DNA of 43,064 nucleotides from NCBI GenBank assembly GCA_025450915.1, contig JANWLH010000055.1, positions 1-43,064 on the forward strand, given 5' to 3'. The notes below the pieces were generated by a model that worked only from the letters and a program-made list of their open reading frames with translations, was not told where the DNA came from and ran no database searches. The translations under genes and the position numbers were made by a program. This DNA is from Candidatus Limnocylindrales bacterium. Its GTDB lineage: Bacteria > Chloroflexota > Limnocylindria > Limnocylindrales > CSP1-4. Shown in pieces: positions 10,323 through 40,065 of the stretch (the stretch's first letter is position 1; the number at the start of each line of letters is the position of its first letter).

Positions 10323-10367
10323 TGGAGCGGGAGACGAGGTTCGAACTCGCGACATTCAGCTTGGAAG
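10323..10367 (-). other. tRNA-Gly 3'-half fragment (outer attachment site copy)
   Basis: tggagcgggagacgaggttcgaactcgcgacattcagcttggaag is identical over 45 nt to 11326-11370 of the intact tRNA-Gly (CCA end through anticodon loop). Identity stops at the anticodon. Confidence 0.92.
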
Positions 10368-11325: not shown

Positions 11326-11401
11326 TGGAGCGGGAGACGAGGTTCGAACTCGCGACATTCAGCTTGGAAGGCTGACGCTCTGCCAACTGAGCTACTCCCG
11401 C
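11326..11401 (-). tRNA. tRNA-Gly (anticodon TCC), CCA encoded
   Basis: Reverse strand GCGGGAG TA GCTC AGTTGGCA GAGC G TCAGC CTTCCAA GCTGA ATGTC GCGAG TTCGAAC CTCGT CTCCCGC T CCA folds as a cloverleaf. Confidence 0.95.
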
Positions 11402-11419: not shown

Positions 11420-11483
11420 ACAGCGGATAATCGTCGATTCTGGCCCTCACCAGTTGACCATACTGCTTGAACAGCGGATAATC
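11420..11483 (+). repeat. Pair of 13-bp direct repeats ACAGCGGATAATC (11420-11432, 11471-11483)
   Basis: Exact 13-bp direct repeat spaced 51 bp, between the tRNA/att site and the integrase. Candidate arm-type binding sites. Confidence 0.7.
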
Positions 11484-11576
11484 ACGCCAGATTCGTTCGG
11501 CTCTGAGCGTGAGACAGCGTCAAAGTATGCGCTGTCCGCTCCCCCGCTGAGTTCGGGCAGAGAGGCAGACTTTTCG

Positions 11577-12527
11577 ATGGCCAGAACGTCTCGCACGCCC
11601 CGTATCGTAGCCCAAGGAGGCCTTCCGGCAACGGGCCCCACGATCGACTCGGCGATCGATTCGTACCGGCTCAGCCTCCGAGCCGGCAACAAGAGCCCAG
11701 CGACGATCAAGACCTACCTCGCGGCGCTGGCCCGCTTCAGCCGGTTCCTGACCGAACAGGGCATGCCCCCGACCCTCCGGGCGATCCGGCGCGAGCACGT
11801 CGAGGCGTTCATCGTCGCGCTACAAGATGCGGGCCAACGCCCCGCAACCGTGTCGATCGCCTACCGGAGCCTCCAGCCGTTCTTCAAGTGGGCCCTGGGC
11901 GAGGACGAGATCGCGGGCTCCCCGATGGAGCGAATGACCCCGCCGATCGTGCCTGAGGAACCGCCAGCGATCCTGCGCGACGAGGAGCTCAAAGCAGTCC
12001 TCAACGCCTGCGCTGGCTCGGACTTCGATGCTCGCCGCGACACCGCCATCATCCGGCTCTTGCTCGACACCGGGATGCGCCGGGCCGAGCTGGCCGGGCT
12101 CAAGGTCGACGACATCGACATGGACCAGCAGGTCGGGATCGTCTTGGGCAAGGGCCGCCGACCGCGGGCCTGCCCATTCGGCAACAAGACCGCCCAGGCG
12201 ATCGACCGCTACCTGCGGCTGCGGTTGGCCCACCCGTTCGCCGACCGACCGGAGCTTTGGCTGGCCCGCAAGGGCGTCCTCACCGACAGCGGCGTGCTGC
12301 AGGTGCTGCGGCGTCGCGGGGCCACAGCCGGACTTCCCAAGCTCCACCCGCACCAGTTCCGCCACACATACGCCCACCTATGGCTCGCCGATGGCGGGAA
12401 CGAGGGAGACCTGATGCGCCTCGCCGGCTGGAAGAGCCGCCAGATGCTCAGCCGCTACGGCGCCTCAGCGGCGGACGAGCGAGCGCGTGATGCATACCGA
12501 CGCCGGAGCCCAGGAGACCGAATCTGA
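11577..12527 (+). CDS. Tyrosine recombinase / phage-type integrase
   Basis: N-terminal SAM-like domain ([33 protein letters not shown]) and catalytic motifs: TGMRRAEL (R), LGKGRRPR (K), [15 protein letters not shown] (HxxR), [17 protein letters not shown] (W/Y). Confidence 0.95.
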
Positions 12528-12595
12528 CGTGAGATTGAGTGCACTACTACCAGGTTGCCAAGTGTGTCGTGCAGACCTCTAGTATTATCGGAGGA

Positions 12596-13210
12596 ATGAA
12601 CGACACAACCGCGCCAAGGCGGCCCAACTCGGAGGCCCTCTTTGGGACGGCCAGCGAGCAGGCGGGCTACTTCACGGCCGCTCAGGCGAGCACGGCAGGC
12701 TACAGCTGGACGCTGCTCTCGTATCACGCGAGACACGGCCGCTTCACGCGCGTCGCCAGGGGGCTGTATCGCTTCCGAGACTATCCCTCCTCCCCGCGTG
12801 AGGAGCTCATCGCCGCTTGGCTACGGCTGGCACCTGACGCCGCGGTCTCGCACGAGTCGGCACTCGAGGCTCTTGGCCTCTCCGATGTCATCCCGGACTC
12901 GATCCATCTGACGGTCCCGCGCGCGCGCCGAAAGCTGAGTCGAACGCCCGGCGTATCGATCCACACCACCATCCGACCCCTGGAGCTCACCGACGTCCTC
13001 AAACGTGACGGGGTTCGACTCACTGCGCCAGCTCGGACGATCGTGGACGTCGCCGAGGCTGGCACAGCCCCCGAGCAGGTGGTGCTTGCCACGCGCCAGG
13101 CGGTGGAGCGCGGACTGACGACCCCATCCCGAGTTCGGGCTGCAGCACGGTTTCGAAGCCGTCGAGTCCGGGATCTGATCGAGACCGCACTGGCCGAGGC
13201 TGGGAGGTGA
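12596..13210 (+). CDS. AbiEi-family antitoxin (type IV toxin-antitoxin)
   Basis: FTAAQASTAGYSWTLLSYHARHGRFTRVARGLYRFRDYP winged helix; DAAVSHESALEALGLSDVIPDSIHLTVP...RDGVRLTAPARTIVDVAEAG. GTGA overlap with AbiEii. Confidence 0.9.
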   Translation: MNDTTAPRRPNSEALFGTASEQAGYFTAAQASTAGYSWTLLSYHARHGRFTRVARGLYRFRDYPSSPREELIAAWLRLAPDAAVSHESALEALGLSDVIPDSIHLTVPRARRKLSRTPGVSIHTTIRPLELTDVLKRDGVRLTAPARTIVDVAEAGTAPEQVVLATRQAVERGLTTPSRVRAAARFRSRRVRDLIETALAEAGR

Positions 13211-14121
13211 GGTACACCTCTGCGTCGGTCTTTCGCCAGGCACTCGAGACGCGGCTGCAGACCCTAAGCCGCGAAGACGGCGTCTCCATCGTCAGGCTCC
13301 GAAAGCAGGTCGCGTTCGATCGACTGCTGGCCAGGCTTCTCGTTGCCGCGCCGGGCCGGTGGGTGCTTAAGGGCGGACTCGCTCTCGAGTATCGGTTCGG
13401 TACCCGCGCCCGATCGACCAGAGACATGGATCTTGCGGGCTCCGCAGACGAGGACACAGCGACAGCCGACCTACTCGCCGCCCAAGATCTCGGCCTTGGC
13501 GACTACCTCGGATTCACGATCGAACGCACAGCCCGGCTCGATGACCTTGTCGAGGGATCGGCGGTCAGGTACCACGTTCGAGCGGACCTGGGCGGCCGTC
13601 GCTTCGAGGACTTCGTCGTCGACGTCGGCTTCGATCTGGCGCCCGGTTGGGACGCGGAGATGCTGAAGGGCACGGATCTCCTCGCGTTCGCCGGGATCGA
13701 CGCAGTAGAGGCGCCGTCGCTCGCGCTGGAGCTGCAGGTTGCCGAGAAGGTCCATGCCTACACCCGTGCCTACGGCCCAAAAGGCATCCGCAGTACGCGA
13801 GTCAAGGACATCGTGGATCTCGCTCTGATCGCGTCGACGGTCAGCCTGGACGCCGAGCGAATCCATCGCGCTCTGCGTGATACGTTCGGGCAGCGCGGCG
13901 ACCGCGATCTCCCCGTCTTGCTTGCTGCTCCGCCAAGTGACTGGGAGGTGCCGTTCCGACGCCTGGCTGCAGAGATCGGGATGAAGGTGGACCTCGGGCG
14001 GGGGCATGAGCTCGCGTCCCGGCTACTGGACCCGATACTCTCCGGCGAGATTGAGACTGGCACCTGGAGTGTTGCGACCGCGGGCTGGGTCACCGATCAT
14101 GCGGTGCGGGGACCACGATAG
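13207..14121 (+). CDS. AbiEii/AbiGii-family nucleotidyltransferase toxin
   Basis: WVLKGGLALEYRFGTRARSTRDMDLAGS (KGG...R.T.D.DL NTase motif); ALELQVAEKVHAYTRAYGPKGIRSTRVKDIVDLALIA. Confidence 0.92.
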   Translation: MRYTSASVFRQALETRLQTLSREDGVSIVRLRKQVAFDRLLARLLVAAPGRWVLKGGLALEYRFGTRARSTRDMDLAGSADEDTATADLLAAQDLGLGDYLGFTIERTARLDDLVEGSAVRYHVRADLGGRRFEDFVVDVGFDLAPGWDAEMLKGTDLLAFAGIDAVEAPSLALELQVAEKVHAYTRAYGPKGIRSTRVKDIVDLALIASTVSLDAERIHRALRDTFGQRGDRDLPVLLAAPPSDWEVPFRRLAAEIGMKVDLGRGHELASRLLDPILSGEIETGTWSVATAGWVTDHAVRGPR

Positions 14122-26708: not shown

Positions 26709-27065
26709 TCAGGAACCCCGAGGTGCCTGCCCTTCCTCGCGGAGGTGCTCGACGTGGTAGATCGCTTCGTTGAGCATGATCGCCACGTGGTCGTCACGGA
26801 GGGAGTACACGATCGTACGACCCTCTCGCTTCGCCCGGACCAGGTCGAGATGCCGAAGCAGGCGGAGCTGATGAGAGACGGCGGACTGCTCCATGCCGAT
26901 CTCGTCGGCGATGACCGAGACCGATCCCGCCGCCCGCCAGAGCCGGGCCAGGATCCGTACGCGGCTCGGCGTCGCGAACGCCTGGCTCAGCTCTGCTACC
27001 GATTCGGCAAGCTCGTCATCGACTACAGGTGGGGCCGGAACTGGACGTTTGACGCGGTGGCTCAT
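26709..27065 (-). CDS. ArsR-family winged-helix regulator
   Basis: LSQAFATPSRVRILARLWRAAGSVSVIADEIGMEQSAVSHQLRLLRHLDLVRAKREGRTIVYSLRDDHVAIMLNEAIYHVEHL. Confidence 0.95.
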   Translation of the reverse strand: MSHRVKRPVPAPPVVDDELAESVAELSQAFATPSRVRILARLWRAAGSVSVIADEIGMEQSAVSHQLRLLRHLDLVRAKREGRTIVYSLRDDHVAIMLNEAIYHVEHLREEGQAPRGS

Positions 27066-27090
27066 CGCTCCTAGCCTAACAGGTGATGCT

Positions 27091-27114
27091 GTGAACGTAT
27101 GAATTGGCGTTCAC
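27091..27114. promoter_or_regulatory. Candidate ArsR operator in the divergent promoter region
   Basis: GTGAACG-tatgaattgg-CGTTCAC, a perfect 7-bp inverted repeat with 10-bp spacer between divergent starts 27065 (-) and 27164 (+). Confidence 0.6.
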
Positions 27115-27163
27115 GCTTCTACAAGACTCGGTTCCTCCTGGTCTGCGCGATCGAGGGCGCCAT

Positions 27164-27862
27164 ATGACCCAATACCTCACGACGCTGCTCGGCGTCCCGA
27201 TCGCGACTCCAAGCGGAGCCGTCGTTGGCGAACTCGACGATCTGCTCGCGGACGCCCGGCAATGGCCAGTGCCTCGGGTTCTGCGGGTAGAGGTGCGCTT
27301 TCCCGACCGCGACCGTGGCTGGCTGCCGCTCGATGCGGTCCGCATCGGTCCAGACCGGGTCAGCGTTGACGCGGGTGCCAGCCGGAACCCGCCCGACCGG
27401 ACCCATCTTCTGCGTCTGCGGGCGCAGCTCCTCGATCATCAGGCAATCGATCTCGTCGAGGCCGCCGTCGTGCGGGTCAACGATGTGGTCCTGACCCAGA
27501 CTTCGGCCGGCCTCGAGGTGACCCGGGTCGACGTTGGGCTCACAGGCCTCGCTCGTGAGCTGGCTCCCCGATCGAGCCGGGGTCTCCTAGGCCGTCTGAC
27601 GCCCAGGGCCCCCTGGCAGCACGAACTCGCGTGGACCGACATCGACCCGGTCGAGTCGGCGATCGACCATTTCCAGCTCTTCGATGCTCATGCCGGCATC
27701 CGACGCCTCGCGCCGGCGGCCATCGCAAGGATCCTGCCGCCACTGCGGCCGGGCGATCGGATGGCGATCCTCGGGGCACTCGGTGGCGAGACCGTCGCCG
27801 CGGTCCTGGTCGCATCTGATGCACGTTTCCGGCGGCTCCTCATGACCAAGCTCAACCAGTAG
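27164..27862 (+). CDS. PRC-barrel-like / MgtE N-terminal-domain-like protein without transporter domain
   Basis: Two PRC-like segments (LLGVPIATPSGAVVGELDDLLAD...; AAVVRVNDVVLTQTSAGLEVTRVDVGLTGLARELAP), then RRLAPAAIARILPPLRPGDRMAILGALGGETVAAVLVASDARFRRLLMTKL resembling MgtE_N helices. Confidence 0.65.
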   Translation: MTQYLTTLLGVPIATPSGAVVGELDDLLADARQWPVPRVLRVEVRFPDRDRGWLPLDAVRIGPDRVSVDAGASRNPPDRTHLLRLRAQLLDHQAIDLVEAAVVRVNDVVLTQTSAGLEVTRVDVGLTGLARELAPRSSRGLLGRLTPRAPWQHELAWTDIDPVESAIDHFQLFDAHAGIRRLAPAAIARILPPLRPGDRMAILGALGGETVAAVLVASDARFRRLLMTKLNQ

Positions 27863-27879
27863 CCCCTGAAGCCGCGCCG

Positions 27880-29220
27880 ATGCCCGACCTCCCGCCCATT
27901 CCGCAACGTCCCCGATTTCCGGCCAGCCCTCGGCCGCACCTCCGCCCCCGGCCTCATCCGCACCTGCCGAATCGAACGCGAGGTGGGGCGGTTCGGCTGG
28001 GTCTGTTGCTCGCGATCCTCGGTCCCGGCCTTGTGTCTGGCTTCGCTGACAACGACGCAGGCGGGATCGCGACCTACTCACTCGCGGGGATCCAGTTCGG
28101 CTATGACCTGCTGTGGGTCATCTTGGCGAGCCAGATCGTGTTGTTCTTCACCCAAGAGGTCGGGGCCCGGCTTGGCCTCGCGACCGGGCAGGGCTTGACC
28201 GGGCTCGTCCGTGGTCGGTACGGGGTGCGCTGGGCCGCGTTCGTCGCCGTCCTGATGCTCATCGCCAACCTCGGCACGACCCTAGCCGAGTTCGCCGGGA
28301 TCGGCGCTGCCCTGAGCCTGTTTGGGGTGCCGATTGCAGTCAGCGCCGTTCTCTCCGCGGTAGCGATGGTCCTCCTCGTCTCGCGCGGCAGCTTCGGAAA
28401 AGTCCAGTTCCTGTTCGTGGCTGTCGGGATCGCCGTTTCGATTGCGTACCTCGCTTCGGCGATCCTCGCGAAACCCGACTGGGGGTTGGCAGTGACCCGG
28501 CTGGTCATCCCGAAACTCAGCGGCGCACCGGTGTATTGGCTCGCGGTCGTGGGCACGGTCGGGACGACGATTACGCCTTGGGGCCAGGCGTTCATCCAGG
28601 CCTATGTCGTGGACAAGGGGCTGGGGGTGAAGGCGCTCCTTGGCGAGCGGATCGATGTCGCGTTGGGCTCATGGCTCACCAACGTGATCGCTGGGTTCAT
28701 CGTCGTCGCCTGCGCGGCGACGTTGTGGGCCTCGGGTCAAACGAACATCACGGATGTGGCCCAGGCGGCCAAAGCGCTTGGCCCGCTGGCCGGCAGTTCG
28801 GCGACGCTCCTCTTCGCCGGCGGCCTCCTCGCCGCCTCGCTCCTGGGCCTCGGGGTCGTCCCGCTGACAAGTGCCTACACCGTCTGCGAGGCGTTCGGTT
28901 GGGAGGCCGGCGTCCAGTGGCGCTGGCGCGACGCCCCGGTGTTCTATGGCCTCCTTGCCTTCTTTGTCGGATTCGCGGCCCTCGTCGTATTGATCCCAGG
29001 CTTACCGCTGTTCCAGGTGATCGTGCTTTCGCAGGTGCTCAATGGGCTGCTCCTGCCGTTCATCCTCGTGTTTGTGATGTTGCTCGCCCGGGACCGGTCC
29101 CTGATGGGCGCGCTGCGGAGCGGGCGTTTGCTAACTGTGATCGGCTGGGCGGTCACGGTGATCCTCGCCGCCATGTCGGTGGTGCTCGTGTACGTCAGCC
29201 TCGCACCGCCGGCGTCATAG
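27880..29220 (+). CDS. Nramp/SLC11-superfamily transporter, noncanonical motifs
   Basis: LGPGLVSGFADNDAGGIATYSLAGIQFGYDLLWVILASQIVLFFTQEVGARLGLATGQGLTGLVR is Nramp-like. TM1 motif is DAGG rather than DPGN; TM6 region is TTITPWGQAF rather than MPH. Confidence 0.88.
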   Translation: MPDLPPIPQRPRFPASPRPHLRPRPHPHLPNRTRGGAVRLGLLLAILGPGLVSGFADNDAGGIATYSLAGIQFGYDLLWVILASQIVLFFTQEVGARLGLATGQGLTGLVRGRYGVRWAAFVAVLMLIANLGTTLAEFAGIGAALSLFGVPIAVSAVLSAVAMVLLVSRGSFGKVQFLFVAVGIAVSIAYLASAILAKPDWGLAVTRLVIPKLSGAPVYWLAVVGTVGTTITPWGQAFIQAYVVDKGLGVKALLGERIDVALGSWLTNVIAGFIVVACAATLWASGQTNITDVAQAAKALGPLAGSSATLLFAGGLLAASLLGLGVVPLTSAYTVCEAFGWEAGVQWRWRDAPVFYGLLAFFVGFAALVVLIPGLPLFQVIVLSQVLNGLLLPFILVFVMLLARDRSLMGALRSGRLLTVIGWAVTVILAAMSVVLVYVSLAPPAS

Positions 29221-29395
29221 TGCTCTCGGCGCGATTGGTCGCTTCCTGTGCGGCCCGAGCATCAGGAGAACCCAGTCGGGGCGACGACCGACCTTTCATC
29301 TGCCTAGCGACCGAACACCTCGATGATCGTCATCACACTGGCGAGAGTCGGAAGAGCCACATTCGATGGGCTGCGCGAGAAGGTGGGGAGCGCTC

Positions 29396-30745
29396 ATGAC
29401 TGAGCCAGGGCCGTCAACGACCGCCGCCGAACCGCGAGTGGACCCCAATCGCCCGGTCGATCCCAAGACGGCTGAACTACGGGCCGAGAAGAACCCCCTG
29501 AAGCGGTTTGCGAAGGTCCTCGGGCCAGGCCTGATCACCGGCGCCTCGGACGACGATCCATCGGGCATCGGAACGTATGCCCAGGCCGGTGCCCAATATG
29601 GCTATGCGACGCTCTGGACGACGGTCGTGATGCTGCCGATGATGATCAGCGTCCAGTACATCTGCGCCAAGATCGGCCTGGTGTCGGGCAAGGGTCTCGC
29701 CGGTGTCCTGCGCGAGCATCATCCGCGACTCCTCTACCCTGCGGTCCTGGCCCTCGTCGTCGCCAATACCCTCAACGCCGGGGCGGACATCGGGGCGATC
29801 GCTGCGGCGATCAACCTGCTCGTGCCGATCCCCGCGATCGTGTTCATCGTGCCGGTGAGTCTGGCGATCGTCGCCCTCCAGGTCTTCGGCGGCTATCACC
29901 TGATCGATCGGGTCTTCAAGTGGCTGGCCCTCGCGCTGCTGGCGTACCTAGGGGCGGCGCTCTTCGCCCGGCCGGACGTCGTCCGGGTCCTGGCGGGCAC
30001 GCTGATCCCGACGATTCGGCTGGACCCGGCGTTCATCGGGATCCTCGTTGCCATCCTGGGGACGACGATCTCGCCGTACCTATTCTTCTGGCAGGCGAGC
30101 CAGGAGGTCGAGGAGCAGATCAGCATCGGCCGACGCCGCCTGCGTCAACGCCAGGGCGCCTCGGGCTTCGAGCTCAAGTACGCCCTCTGGGACACCGTCG
30201 CCGGGATGGTCTTCTCCGAGGTCGTGGCCTACTTCATCATCCTCGCGACCGGGGCCACCCTGTTCGTCGCGGGCAAGACCAATATCACCTCGGCGACCGA
30301 TGCCGCGCAGGCCCTTCGGCCATTGGCCGGCGACGCTGCTGCGATCCTGCTCGCGATCGGGCTCATCGGCGCCGGGGTGCTGGCGGTCCCGGTCCTGACC
30401 GGGTCCGCGGCCTATGGCGTCTCGGAGGCGTTCGGCTGGAAGTCGGGCCTCGACAGCAAGCCCGGCCGCGCACCGCAGTTCTACGCTGTGATCGTCGCCG
30501 CGACCCTGGTCGGTATGGCGCTGAACTTCCTGGGGATCAATCCGATCACGGCGCTCGTCCTGAGCGCGGTCCTCAATGGTCTGCTCGCCGGACCGCTGCT
30601 GGTCCTGGTGATGCTCGTCTCGAACGACCGCCGGGTGCTCGGTGAGCGGACGAATGGCCGGCTCCTGAACACCATTGGCTGGGTAACGACGGGCGTGATG
30701 AGCTTGGCGGCGGTCGGCCTGGTCGTGACGACGATCTTCGGGTGA
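29396..30745 (+). CDS. Nramp/SLC11-superfamily transporter, noncanonical motifs (second copy)
   Basis: VLGPGLITGASDDDPSGIGTYAQAGAQYGYATLWTTVVMLPMMISVQYICAKIGLVSGKGLAGVLREHHP; TM6 GTTISPYLFFWQASQEVEEQ. GGGGAG RBS before ATG 29396. Confidence 0.9.
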   Translation: MTEPGPSTTAAEPRVDPNRPVDPKTAELRAEKNPLKRFAKVLGPGLITGASDDDPSGIGTYAQAGAQYGYATLWTTVVMLPMMISVQYICAKIGLVSGKGLAGVLREHHPRLLYPAVLALVVANTLNAGADIGAIAAAINLLVPIPAIVFIVPVSLAIVALQVFGGYHLIDRVFKWLALALLAYLGAALFARPDVVRVLAGTLIPTIRLDPAFIGILVAILGTTISPYLFFWQASQEVEEQISIGRRRLRQRQGASGFELKYALWDTVAGMVFSEVVAYFIILATGATLFVAGKTNITSATDAAQALRPLAGDAAAILLAIGLIGAGVLAVPVLTGSAAYGVSEAFGWKSGLDSKPGRAPQFYAVIVAATLVGMALNFLGINPITALVLSAVLNGLLAGPLLVLVMLVSNDRRVLGERTNGRLLNTIGWVTTGVMSLAAVGLVVTTIFG

Positions 30746-30861
30746 CCGGATTCTAACGAGGGAGACGCTTAGAAGGTCTCGATCCGCCACGAGCCACGCG
30801 GGAGGCGGCTCCGTGCCCGCGGGAACAGTCGGGGGCCAGCCGTCACGAAGGGAGACCGAAC

Positions 30862-31302
30862 ATGCCAGGAACGTTCGAGCGTAAAGCCCATCCGTACATC
30901 GCCGAGCGGAGCAAGGCCGCAGATACGAAGGAGCAGGTCGGAATCAACAGCAAGATCGCCACGCTGGTCACAGGCGCCGTCGGGACGATGTGGTGCGCCT
31001 ACGCGTTCGCGATCCTCGCCCTCGTCGCCCTGCCCTCGGCGCTCAAGAGCGGCGACCCGCTCGCGGTCGTCCAGTGGATCAGCCAGACCTTTCTCCAGTT
31101 GGTCCTGCTGAGCGTCATCATCGTCGGCCAGAACATCACGTCCCAGGCATCGGACAAGCGAGCCCAGATGACCTACAAGGACGCCGAGGCCACGTTCTAC
31201 GAGGCGCAGCAGATCCAGGACCACCTGCAGGCACAGGATGACGCGATGAGCACCCTTCTCGACAAGCTCCTCAAGTTGGAGGCGGCCTCGACGCAGGCCT
31301 GA
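30862..31302 (+). CDS. DUF1003-like small membrane protein (divergent)
   Basis: INSKIATLVTGAVGTMWCAYAFAILALVALPSAL...WISQTFLQLVLLSVIIVGQNITSQASDKRAQMTYKDAEATFYEAQQIQDHLQAQDD; same TM-TM-coiled-coil plan as 31605-32126. Confidence 0.7.
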   Translation: MPGTFERKAHPYIAERSKAADTKEQVGINSKIATLVTGAVGTMWCAYAFAILALVALPSALKSGDPLAVVQWISQTFLQLVLLSVIIVGQNITSQASDKRAQMTYKDAEATFYEAQQIQDHLQAQDDAMSTLLDKLLKLEAASTQA

Positions 31303-31418
31303 GCGCGAGCCGTTGCCGTCTCGGCGTTGCGCGTCATTGCGATCCCATGTCCCATAGCCAACGTCGAGCGCCACCTGCTCAGGGCCCGATCGAGTGCGGA
31401 GGCGAAGGACTGGGCGAC

Positions 31419-31517
31419 CTAGCCGTGAGAGCCCACGAGGATGGCGAGCCCGATCGTAGCCAAGATGAGCGCGACCGCTGCGAGTGCCAACAGGACGTAA
31501 GCAAGCTGGCGGCGCAC
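31419..31517 (-). CDS. Possible single-TM microprotein (~32 aa)
   Basis: Reverse strand V/MRRQLAYVLLALAAVALILATIGLAILVGSHG*, in an otherwise non-coding gap. Confidence 0.25.
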   Translation of the reverse strand: MRRQLAYVLLALAAVALILATIGLAILVGSHG

Positions 31518-31604
31518 GGTCTCTGCCCTCGGCTGTGCCGGGTTCGTCCCACCCTACCATTCGTCGAGATCCCGATATCAGGGACGTGCTGGAGGACCGA
31601 CGTA

Positions 31605-32126
31605 ATGGCGCGAACCAAATATCAGCACCCGGTCAACAAGGCCCTCGTGGAGAACGCGCCAACAGGTGCGCGGATCGCCGACATGGTCACCGGGTTCATG
31701 GGCAGCTGGCGGTTCATCATTGTCCAGACGGTGATCGTGGCGATCTGGCTCGCCGGCAATATCTACCTGCTGGGCAAGCCCTTCGACCCGTTCCCGTTCA
31801 TCCTGCTGAACCTCGCCTTCAGTACCCAGGCTGCTTATGCTGCACCACTGATCCTGCTCGCCGGCAACCGCGCCGCGGCCCACGACCGGGCAACCCTCGA
31901 GCATGCGGCGACCCAGGCCGATGTCGAGGAGAAGCAGAATGAGAAGCTGATCGCGGACGCCAAGCAGTCCCTGGCCCACCTGACGGAGGTCGCTGAGCGG
32001 ACCCTCGCCATCGAGGAGGCCCTCAAGGTCCAGGGCGACCAGCTCATTCGGATGGAGAAGGCGATCCTGGCCTTCGAGAGTCAGGCGGCCGTCGAGCGCA
32101 CGGCAGGCGAGCCACCCACCTCCTAA
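31605..32126 (+). CDS. DUF1003 family membrane protein
   Basis: ADMVTGFMGSWRFIIVQTVIVAIWLAGNIYLLGKPFDPFPFILLNLAFSTQAAYAAPLILLAGNRAAAHDRATLEHAA is the DUF1003 signature. Confidence 0.9.
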   Translation: MARTKYQHPVNKALVENAPTGARIADMVTGFMGSWRFIIVQTVIVAIWLAGNIYLLGKPFDPFPFILLNLAFSTQAAYAAPLILLAGNRAAAHDRATLEHAATQADVEEKQNEKLIADAKQSLAHLTEVAERTLAIEEALKVQGDQLIRMEKAILAFESQAAVERTAGEPPTS

Positions 32127-33349: not shown

Positions 33350-34342
33350 CTACCCATGGGCAAGCGCCTGCTCGAGGGCATCAAGCTGGGCAAGCTGCCA
33401 GGCCTGGAACGTTGAGTAGGCCGCCGGGATCGTCTCCGCGACGCCGACGACCGGGATCCCGTTCGCGACTGCCAGATCGTGGATCGAGCTCGTGATCGGC
33501 GAAACGACCTGACTGTTGTAGAAGAGGACCCTGACCTTCTTGCCAGTGAGCAGGTCCTCCTCGGCCGCGACATCGCCGGGAGCCGGGTCGGTGCCGTCCT
33601 CAATCGACTTCTGAAAGCCTTCGGGCGTCAGGACTTCTAGCCCGATTGCTGCGGCCAGGTAGCCCGCCACGGGCTCGGTGAACGCCACCGGAGTCCCCGA
33701 GTCGGCCGCCTTGAGCTTGGCGATCTCGGCCGTGACCGGGCCGAAGGCCGCGAGGTACTTCTGTTCGCAGGCGCTGAAGTAGGCGGCATTCGCTGGATCG
33801 AGCTTGGCCAGGTCAGTCGTCGCAGCCGCCGCGACCTTCGGCATCGTCCCAGGGTCATACCAGATGTGGGCGTTCGCGCCGTCGGCGATCCCGAGCAGCT
33901 GCTGGACGTTGATCACGATCCGGGTGGCGTTCGGTGACGCGTTGAGCAGCTTCTCCATGAAGTCGTCGTAGCCGATTCCATTGACGATCACGAGCTGGGC
34001 ATCGGCGACGTTCGCGGCATCCTCGGCGCTGCTCTCGAAGGCATGGGGGTCGGCGTTCGGGTCATTGAGCAGGCTCGACACTTTGACCCGAGCGCCGCCG
34101 ATCTGGCTCAGGAGGTCGGCGTAGAAGTTCTCGGTGCCGAGCACGACGAGCGGTGGAGCCGAGCCGACGGGGCTTGGACCCTCCACGGACGCGCCAGCTG
34201 CTGTCGGGCCGGCTGATGCACTCGGAATGCCTGCCGACGGCCCTTGCGTCGTCGTCGCCTGACAGCCGATTAGGGCGGTCGTCCCTAGGAGCACGGCGAG
34301 CCCCTGGAGCCAGTTGCGACAGAGTCTCACTTGTCGGTACAC
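33350..34342 (-). CDS. Metal ABC transporter substrate-binding lipoprotein (ZnuA/TroA-like)
   Basis: Lipobox TALIGCQ. VVLGTENFYADLLSQIGGARVKVSSLLNDPNADPHAFESSAEDAANVADAQLVIVNGIGYDDFMEKLL...ANAHIWYDPGTMPKVAAAATTDLAKLDPANAAYF. Confidence 0.9.
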   Translation of the reverse strand: MYRQVRLCRNWLQGLAVLLGTTALIGCQATTTQGPSAGIPSASAGPTAAGASVEGPSPVGSAPPLVVLGTENFYADLLSQIGGARVKVSSLLNDPNADPHAFESSAEDAANVADAQLVIVNGIGYDDFMEKLLNASPNATRIVINVQQLLGIADGANAHIWYDPGTMPKVAAAATTDLAKLDPANAAYFSACEQKYLAAFGPVTAEIAKLKAADSGTPVAFTEPVAGYLAAAIGLEVLTPEGFQKSIEDGTDPAPGDVAAEEDLLTGKKVRVLFYNSQVVSPITSSIHDLAVANGIPVVGVAETIPAAYSTFQAWQLAQLDALEQALAHG

Positions 34343-34397
34343 GCGAACCCCATTTCGTTTTCTCGGGCGGATCGACGACTTGCGTCCTTGCTTAAAA

Positions 34398-34838
34398 TCA
34401 GGCGTCGAGCGCGGTCTTCACCTGGCAGTGACGGCAGAGCCCGAAGAGCTCGAGCCGATGGGTACTGATCTCGTAGCCGGTTTGGTGGGCGATCTCCGCG
34501 ACGGCCTCGGCGACGCCCGAGTCGGTGACTTCGGCGGTCCGCCCGCAGCGCGAGCAGACGACGTGGTGGTGATGGGCGCGGGCGCAGGGGACATAGGCAT
34601 GATCGCCGCCGGGCAAATCGAGTCGCTCGATGACCCCCAGCTCGATCAAGAGGTCCAGAGCGCGGTACAACGTCGCCCGACTCAGTCCCAGGCGGCGCTC
34701 GCGGGCGGCCAGCTCAAGTTCGGCAGCCGTGAAGTGGCCGCCGTAGCCGGCGATCAGCGCGGCAATGGCCCGCCGCGGGGCGGTCAGGCGATAGCCGCCG
34801 AGATCGAGGACGGCGATGATCGGATCAGTCTGGGTCAT
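34398..34838 (-). CDS. Fur-family metalloregulator (Zur-like)
   Basis: MTQTDPIIAVLDLGGYRLTAPRRAIAALIAGYGGHFTAAELELAARERRLGLSRATLYRALDLLIELGVIERLDLPGGDHAYVPCARAHHHHVVCSRCGRTAEV...FGLCRHCQVK with two CxxC pairs. Confidence 0.95.
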   Translation of the reverse strand: MTQTDPIIAVLDLGGYRLTAPRRAIAALIAGYGGHFTAAELELAARERRLGLSRATLYRALDLLIELGVIERLDLPGGDHAYVPCARAHHHHVVCSRCGRTAEVTDSGVAEAVAEIAHQTGYEISTHRLELFGLCRHCQVKTALDA

Positions 34839-34885
34839 CCCCGCGATGCTATTGCACTTCCCCGCCCTCTGTCTAGACTGAGTCG

Positions 34886-34897
34886 CAATAATTATCG
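34886..34897. promoter_or_regulatory. Candidate Fur/Zur operator core (AT-rich palindrome)
   Basis: caATAATTATcg: 8-bp palindrome ATAATTAT (34888-34895) about 50 bp upstream of the Fur-family start, an AT island in GC-rich DNA. Confidence 0.35.
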
Positions 34898-35181
34898 AAC
34901 CTTGTTCAATCCGAAGAGAATTGACGGGACACAATCTCATGATGATCGGACCAGACTGGCAGGACCGCGGCGTGCGGCTGCTGGAGGCGCCTCTGGCGGC
35001 GTCGAGCCCTCGTCGCCGTCGGGCGGCAGTTCGGCATCGTCGTCGTCGCGGTCGCGCAGGCGGCGATCGTCCGGAACGTTGCCTGCAGCGCCATCCACCT
35101 GATGGGGCTGAGGAGACACGATGAGTGAACGGTGTCGATCGACAGCGGCCTGGGGATGAACCGGAACCTGGTTGGAGTCGG

Positions 35182-38358: not shown

Positions 38359-39054
38359 TCACGCCTTACGTTTTGCGCCAACAGGCCGCCCGAGCTCCCG
38401 GTCGATCGCATTCGCCGCCCGCGTCTCTCCAGCTCGTCGGAGGGCATCAATGGCTTTGTCGAGGATCCCGGTAACGTGGGCGAGCTCCTCCCGGAGCGCC
38501 TTTGCCTCGTCCCAGCGCTCCAGCTCGGCAGCGCCGCACCAGGCTCGCAGGATGTCGCGGCAGGGCTTGCAATGCTCGGCGTCGTACTCCTGGCAGCGTT
38601 CGGGAGGCACGAGCTGGGGCGGCTCGCCACGCCACTCGACGTACCGCCCATGGAGGGCCTCGTCGCGGGCCTTGGCTTCCTCCTTCTCGACGTAGCGAAG
38701 GATCGGATCGGGATCCCGACTTGCGGCTCGAGCCGCGATCGATCGAGCGATCGCCCATGGAGCCACCAGCCAGCCGTCTTCGATGAACGAGAGTTCGCTG
38801 GCAAACGAGTCAGTACTCGCGTCGAGGAACATGGCGAGCGCTTCTGGATCCGGGATCGTCACCGTCGTGCATCGTCCCTCCCAGCCCATCACTGCCAGAC
38901 GCGGGTCAATGAGCTTGTCGAAGACCGTCGAGGCAGCCGAACTCCCGGGTGAATCGCCAGTCTCGGAAGCATCAAGGAGCGCGTCCCATCGCGCCTCGCG
39001 AGCCCGGAAGGTCTCGAGTCCTGACCAGAGGCACTTGAGCCGACCGGTCGGCAC
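38359..39054 (-). CDS. Hypothetical protein (start uncertain)
   Basis: VPTGRLKCLWSGLETFRAREARWDALLDASETGD...CQEYDAEHCKPCRDILRAWCGAAELERWDEAKALREELAHVTGILDKAIDALRRAGETRAANAI. The ORF-track start at 39165 overlaps a recombinase remnant antisense, so the start is probably internal. Confidence 0.55.
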   Translation of the reverse strand: MPTGRLKCLWSGLETFRAREARWDALLDASETGDSPGSSAASTVFDKLIDPRLAVMGWEGRCTTVTIPDPEALAMFLDASTDSFASELSFIEDGWLVAPWAIARSIAARAASRDPDPILRYVEKEEAKARDEALHGRYVEWRGEPPQLVPPERCQEYDAEHCKPCRDILRAWCGAAELERWDEAKALREELAHVTGILDKAIDALRRAGETRAANAIDRELGRPVGAKRKA

Positions 39055-39094
39055 CCACTCAGCCCGACCTTCGAACTCGTCGGCGACCCAGCTC

Positions 39095-39883
39095 GTCACC
39101 CCGGCCCTCTGGTCGGCCGCCCAGGAGACGCTCGCCCGCAATCGCCGCGTCGTTCGCAACAGCACTCGGTCGTATCTCCTGCGGGGCGTGATCCATTGCG
39201 CCGAGTGCGGCCTGACCTACATCGGCTCGCAGGCCCGGAAAGGCCGCGGCTGGTACCGCTGCGGTGGCCGGAACCGCGACCGAGGACCGCTCCAGGGCCG
39301 CTGCACCGGGCCGATGGTCCAGATGGACGCCATCGATGATGTCATCTGGGGCGACATCGAGCGCTGGCTGCGCAACCCGGGCGATGTCCTCGACGAGCTG
39401 GCCCAGGAGCGCGACTCCGGTGCCGCAGTCGCCGAGGCAGAGGCGATCACGATCCGGCGGGCCATCGCCGCGCTCGATGACCAGAAGGCCACCGCCATCA
39501 GCCTCGTCGTCCGGGCTCTGGCGCCCGAGACCGACCTCCAGCCGGAACTTGCCCGGATCGCCGCCGAGCGGTCGCGCCTCGAGGCCCGCCTGACCGCCGT
39601 GGACGGCCCAGAAGAAGACCATCTCCCCGACACGGCCACTGACCTGCTGTCAGAGGTTCGGGCCCGTCTGGACGCCGGGTTGCCGATCGAGGCGCGGCAG
39701 GAGATCGTGCGGCTGCTGGTCGGCCGGATCGTGATCCACGGCGAGACCGCTGCCGATGGCAAGAAGTCGGTCCGGGCCGTCGTCGAGTACCGCTTCCCCG
39801 GTGCACTCAATGTCCACACGGTCATTGGTTCATCGCCGCGACAACAATATTTGGGGTATCGATCCAAACAGTCCCCACCGTGA
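39095..39883 (+). pseudogene. 5'-truncated large serine recombinase (zinc-ribbon and coiled-coil C-terminal region)
   Basis: LVTPALWSAAQETLARNRRVVRNSTRSYLLRGVIHCAECGLTYIGSQARKGRGWYRCGGRNRDRGPLQGRCTGPMVQMDAIDDVIWGDIERWLRNP... Recombinase and Zn_ribbon_recom-like. No resolvase catalytic domain upstream. Confidence 0.82.
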
Positions 39884-40026: not shown

Positions 40027-40065
40027 CTTGGAAGGCTGACGCTCTGCCAACTGAGCTACTCCCGC
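40027..40065 (-). other. tRNA-Gly 5'-half fragment (outer attachment site copy)
   Basis: cttggaaggctgacgctctgccaactgagctactcccgc is identical over 39 nt to 11363-11401 of the intact tRNA (anticodon loop through 5' end). Confidence 0.92.

Follow-up and report, generated by a model that had tools for sequence, protein, structure and literature searches.

A 28.7-kb integrative element at a tRNA-Gly gene carries a truncated form of the soluble MgtE-like protein that is encoded beside NRMT-type transporters in many phyla, with an NRMT-type Nramp gene directly behind it and a divergent gene for an ArsR repressor in front. The element lies within the window, by which we mean the whole 43,064-nucleotide stretch analyzed here; this is contig C55, and the draft genome to which it belongs has 2.48 Mb and is assigned to Chloroflexota by way of its close relatives. 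Our preferred reading, to which we give somewhat less than an even chance, is that the window holds a mobile version of a known Mg2+-uptake pair, sensor plus NRMT, in which the partner would no longer provide feedback and control would be transcriptional, through the NmtR/CzrA-like ArsR protein.

Gene layout of the locus

On the + strand, the module runs from a PRC/MgtE_N-like protein (hereafter the short partner) through two Nramp genes, NrA and NrB, to two genes for small membrane proteins, D1 and D2, with the ArsR gene divergent (Table 1). The gaps between consecutive genes from the short partner to D2 are 17, 145, 116, and 302 bp, which argues against the five genes forming one operon; only the short partner and NrA are an obvious pair by spacing, and gaps of this kind would be no demonstration of a single transcript for the module. 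The first-pass annotation had listed an ArsR regulator, a soluble PRC/MgtE_N protein, two Nramp proteins, and two DUF1003 proteins. These genes are real and their coordinates were close, with one DUF1003 protein rather than two; the family of D1, the start of D2, and the completeness of the MgtE_N domain needed correction. D2 most likely starts at 31605 and not at 31347, because GGAGG precedes the later start and both the Pfam match and the homologues begin there.

Table 1. Features of the module and of the element that carries it (window coordinates)
Feature	Position	Strand	Evidence
Left 39-bp repeat, 5' half of intact tRNA-Gly(TCC) (11326-11401, - strand)	11363..11401	.	Exact repeat; ARAGORN
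Tyrosine integrase	11454..12527	+	PF00589 E 8.5e-26; starts ~50 bp from intact tRNA
ArsR/SmtB repressor, NmtR/CzrA-like	26709..27065	-	NCBIfam HTH_metalloreg 75.7 bits; best PDB match NmtR 2lkp E 4.8e-27
Candidate repressor site TGAATTGGCGTTCA	27100..27113	.	TGAA-N6-TTCA in ArsR-PRC gap
Short partner, two PRC barrels plus first half of MgtE_N, without CBS	27164..27862	+	Alignment to full-length relatives; AlphaFold2 mean pLDDT 86
NrA, NRMT-type Nramp (DAGG...TTIT-PW, E133 and Q379 equivalents)	27880..29220	+	EleNRMT 7qia E 2.8e-93; PF01566 E 2e-81
NrB, distinct Nramp subclass (DPSG...TTIS-PY, D133, A379)	29366..30745	+	7qia E 1.2e-60; PF01566 E 7e-82
D1, small DUF1003-like membrane protein	30862..31302	+	PF06210 E 0.0045, 17.6 vs cut-off 27.4 bits
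D2, true DUF1003 membrane protein	31605..32126	+	PF06210 E 3.2e-28, 98.4 vs cut-off 27.4 bits
Second recombinase (serine-recombinase zinc ribbon), near right end	38783..39883	+	PF13408 E 2e-12
Right 39-bp repeat, displaced 5' half of tRNA-Gly	40027..40065	.	Exact repeat

The module is cargo of an integrative element

That the module is mobile-element cargo, as first proposed, was borne out. Exact repeats of half of the tRNA-Gly gene bound the element, an integrase gene adjoins the intact tRNA, and the empty site is preserved in a sister genome (G003), in which the intact tRNA is joined straight to the same right flank. No match to the short partner or NrB was found in G003 at the cut-off used. 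GC content is 63-70% inside the element and mostly 68-72% outside it. A second copy of the 3' half of this tRNA-Gly lies ~1 kb leftward (10323-10367 vs 11326-11401) and has only 8 bp (CTTGGAAG, anticodon loop) in common with the right repeat; a similar 1.1-kb tRNA arrangement is seen in G003, and the site may go back to an older insertion or to a tRNA-replacing element. An AbiEi/AbiEii type IV toxin-antitoxin pair (12539-14121) follows immediately behind the integrase, and genes for a ZnuA-family metal-binding protein and a Fur-family regulator (33350-34940, - strand) lie past the module, still within the element.

A conserved pair of MgtE-like partner and NRMT transporter

Homologues of the short partner were present in 43 of 61 relatives' genomes, mostly as open frames of 400-500 codons with ~30-35% identity, and those full-length homologues that were tested consist of PRC, MgtE_N, and two CBS domains. 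For most of the full-length homologues, the gene that follows abuts and encodes an Nramp. We found 80 loci of this sensor family when scanning public genomes, 76 of them with room downstream; an Nramp gene lies directly behind the sensor gene on the same strand in 60 of the 76, and the remaining 16 showed no NRMT elsewhere in the retrieved stretch either. By their record titles, the 80 loci come from Chloroflexi, Armatimonadota, Actinomycetes, Thermoleophilia, Bacillota, Nitrospirae, Dormiibacterota, Acidobacteria, and others. The pairing of partner and NRMT is thus old and widespread over many phyla. Two NrA-type NRMT genes share a locus with the PRC-MgtE_N-CBS gene in several Chloroflexi (L155, L156, L167, and L173), and on actinomycete plasmids MgtC/SapB genes come shortly after NRMT-CBS sets (L243, 5262-6044; L244, 7508-8218).

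The central idea of the first-pass annotation, a stand-alone sensor that gates a neighboring transporter in trans, is not new, since both the pairing and the gating were already published: Shin et al. (2014; PMC4072509) described NrmT magnesium transporters and observed that the neighbor of most of them encodes a protein homologous to the cytoplasmic domain of MgtE, for which they suggested, as speculation, feedback control or gating in trans. In the same work, co-expression of the Acidobacterium capsulatum NrmT with its MgtE fragment gave no better rescue. In the literature we examined, we found no later test of the effect of this MgtE-like partner on NRMT transport.

The window partner lacks the sensing half

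The short partner is homologous to the full PRC-MgtE_N-CBS proteins from residue 4, and the homology stops at about residue 215-232. It ends in the middle of the MgtE_N domain, reaching no better than E 0.18 against the Pfam MgtE_N model, over model positions 2-50 of 102, and the CBS pair is absent. In MgtE, the MgtE_N and CBS domains are the Mg2+-sensing part. The AlphaFold2 model has beta-rich N-terminal domains, which we read as two PRC barrels, followed by a few short helices. The first-pass label of a sensor with no TM domain was right as to a soluble, PRC/MgtE_N-related protein, and a role as Mg2+ sensor is not supported, given the missing CBS domains and half of MgtE_N. A leftover sensor remnant between the short partner and NrA was ruled out, the room there being 17 bp only.

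The same short form, with the same end position, occurs in a sister species (G002), where it adjoins an NrA 94% identical to that of the window. Over the readable part of the short form, dN/dS between the two copies was 0.13, with dS saturated. One frameshift in the G002 copy, close to the end of its contig, may mean that the short form is decaying; a plain pseudogene is nonetheless not favored, given the open frame in the window genome, the shared end in G002, and the low dN/dS, and the G002 frameshift weakens this rejection. The window genome also has a full-length PRC-MgtE_N-CBS gene joined to another NRMT (contigs C66 and C140, with identical coding sequence at their overlapping ends). With a full-length pair kept elsewhere in the genome, the short form is an extra copy and no replacement.

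Could the short partner still sense metal or act as a regulator, and so gate NrA in trans? We consider this quite improbable. Conservation of the NRMT pairing, purifying selection on the short form between the two species, and a predicted model that is well folded (pLDDT 86) would all suit such a role; the protein nevertheless has no CBS domains and half of MgtE_N only, Foldseek with its model returned PRC-barrel folds and no MgtE among the best 50 matches listed, and the published co-expression of a related pair was without effect. What stands of the gating proposal is the functional link between partner and adjacent NRMT.

NrA, its substrate, and the divergent repressor

The closest solved structure for NrA and NrB alike is EleNRMT (7qia). 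Work on that protein defined the NRMT metal-site motif DxxG-TxxA/T (Ramanadane et al. 2022; PMC8806188), which NrA carries as DAGG in helix 1 (DxxG) and TTIT in helix 6 (TxxA/T). The equivalents of Glu133 and Gln379 are present (E, Q), all EleNRMT site residues checked match, and the methionine and asparagine that favor transition metals are absent. Judged by these residues, the substrate of NrA is likely to be Mg2+. The metal is the weakest point of our preferred reading, because one NrmT that has a partner gene, that of A. capsulatum, is reported to prefer Mn2+ and probably carries mainly this metal (PMC4072509). Rfam scans upstream found no M-box or other Mg2+ riboswitch, and a sigma-70 promoter scan gave nothing, a result that is uninformative in this phylum.

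Among solved structures, the ArsR protein ranked NmtR first, followed by CzrA and SmtB. NmtR senses Ni and Co. Aligned to NmtR and CzrA, the ArsR sequence contains the α5 motif D-x-H-x10-H-x2-H (DDHVAIMLNEAIYHVEH), in agreement with the DxHx10Hx2(E/H) signature, and has no cysteine. This α5 signature and the 12-2-12 operator class were set out in work on AzuR (PMC8790569). The candidate operator in the gap between ArsR and the short partner is of the SmtB type and is the single TGAA-N6-TTCA in the 43-kb window, where 0.11 would be expected. A divergent ArsR gene also lies beside the plasmid-borne NRMT-CBS pairs of Citrobacter and Cellulomonas, in whose ArsR gaps no exact site of this type was found. 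By analogy with NmtR, we infer that the window ArsR would sense Ni or Co and control the pair; the repressor alone suggests Ni/Co-type induction.

These features also bear on a reading of the locus as an island for Ni/Co/Zn tolerance or trace metals, in which the Nramps would move transition metals under the NmtR-like repressor and the Mg2+ label would be wrong or secondary. The kind of repressor, the heavy-metal ATPases that adjoin the similar pairs on the Citrobacter and Cellulomonas plasmids, the ZnuA and Fur-family genes next to the module, and the apparent liking of the A. capsulatum NrmT for Mn2+ (PMC4072509) all point that way. Against it, NrA has the full NRMT signature and lacks the two residues of transition-metal transporters, and we regard such an island as unlikely.

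NrB, D1, and D2

NrB has DPSG and TTIS at the metal site, keeping the glycine and having Ser in place of Ala/Thr. We have not filed it as an NRMT because it has Asp at 133 and Ala at 379 where the NRMT has Glu and Gln, and the substitution Q379A strongly compromises EleNRMT (PMC8806188). D133 and A379 recur throughout the NrB clade, except for S in place of A in one member (G027), and the clade stands on its own in the tree with support of 100/100, long branches being a caveat. On a Mycolicibacterium plasmid, an NrB-type gene, a full-length sensor gene, and an NRMT gene stand in a row. In G002, a reversed C-terminal fragment of NrB lies behind NrA (L038, 2957-3052), a trace of rearrangement.

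D2 is a true DUF1003 protein; D1, below the PF06210 cut-off, is DUF1003-like only. Of 107 family genomes, 55 have a D1 homologue, with identities mostly of 60-67%. D1 was rejected as a paralogue of D2, no profile match joining them (small alignments). Neither protein belongs to a conserved set with the pair: among the 107 family genomes, DUF1003 was near an Nramp at 1 of 24 DUF1003 loci above the cut-off, that of the window, NrB-D1 adjacency was confined to the window and G002, as was D1-D2 adjacency, and DUF1003 occurred at none of the 80 sensor loci scanned, with a profile that does detect distant actinomycete DUF1003 proteins. The full gene set as a conserved system is therefore rejected.

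The idea that DUF1003 is linked to the sensor fared better outside the scanned loci. In three actinomycetes, Tsukamurella, Nocardia, and Nonomuraea, a DUF1003 gene follows directly behind a full-length PRC-MgtE_N-CBS gene (L249, 5260-5856; L250, 5196-5675; L241, 5269-5796, for the DUF1003 genes), so that the sensor family appears to have DUF1003 and NRMT as alternative partners. Of the places seen here, only the window has a sensor-family gene, DUF1003, and NRMT together. Judging by titles, a search of the DUF1003 literature gave nothing on transport.

The cluster may also have arisen by chance, recombination within a mobile element having joined a conserved pair to a stray Nramp gene and to genes for two small membrane proteins of common kinds, with no joint function beyond the pair. 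This account is compatible with our explanation of the pair, and we take it seriously while holding it short of probable. In relatives, NrB, D1, and D2 mostly stand alone, and the genes in the window are loosely spaced; set against this are the recurrence of the NrB-D1 and D1-D2 adjacencies in G002 and the DUF1003 genes directly behind full-length sensor genes in the three actinomycetes.

Proposed mechanism and comparison with known systems

In our preferred reading, that of a mobile variant of the Mg2+-uptake pair, NrA would be an importer of the NRMT type that takes up hydrated Mg2+, and possibly Mn2+ too, without proton coupling. A full-length partner would dock on the transporter, in our proposal by way of the PRC barrels, and would sense cytosolic Mg2+ with its MgtE_N-CBS half and lower transport. 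Having no sensing half, the window partner would serve in docking or stabilizing only. Both the docking of PRC barrels on NrA and the loss of Mg2+ feedback in the short form are plausible. Control would shift to transcription, with ArsR bound at the site in front of the short partner and released by Ni, Co, or Zn, so that competition from toxic cations would bring about higher Mg2+ uptake; NrB and the DUF1003-type proteins would be accessory additions. It is unusual for an importer to be under a repressor that metal releases, and this counts against our reading. The fuller picture, of an Mg2+ importer rewired on a mobile element, which lost the sensing half, kept the docking subunit, escaped feedback, and came under a Ni/Co-type repressor switch for protection from competing metals, we hold to be doubtful.

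The closest known system is the pair of NrmT/NRMT and a gene for MgtE cytosolic domains (PMC4072509; EleNRMT, PMC8806188), which the window set resembles in the pairing itself, the transporter family, its signature, and the adjacent soluble MgtE-like partner. It differs from the published pair (PMC4072509) in its truncated partner, the absence of an M-box riboswitch, the NmtR-like repressor, its seat on an integrative element, and the extra NrB and DUF1003-type genes. Relative to prior art, what is new is a partner that lacks half of MgtE_N and both CBS domains. Full-length relatives of the short partner match the N and CBS domains of the MgtE channel (2yvx/2yvy) at E 7e-52; unlike the channel, the window set has no MgtE membrane domain. 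The actinomycete pair shares with the window the sensor family and a DUF1003 gene and differs in a sensor of full length and, in the annotated Tsukamurella stretch, in having no Nramp beside it. NmtR of Mycobacterium tuberculosis, CzrA, and SmtB are the closest solved relatives of the repressor, whose α5 motif is kept; unlike them, the window ArsR, which may respond to metal in a like manner, has no efflux pump gene beside it.

A natural partner that has PRC barrels and lacks the sensing half offers a ready test of which part docks and which senses. The action of the MgtE-like partner on NRMT transport, a question left from 2014 (PMC4072509), is now directly testable, and the actinomycete pairing of sensor and DUF1003 gives a testable lead for a part of DUF1003 in divalent-cation control.
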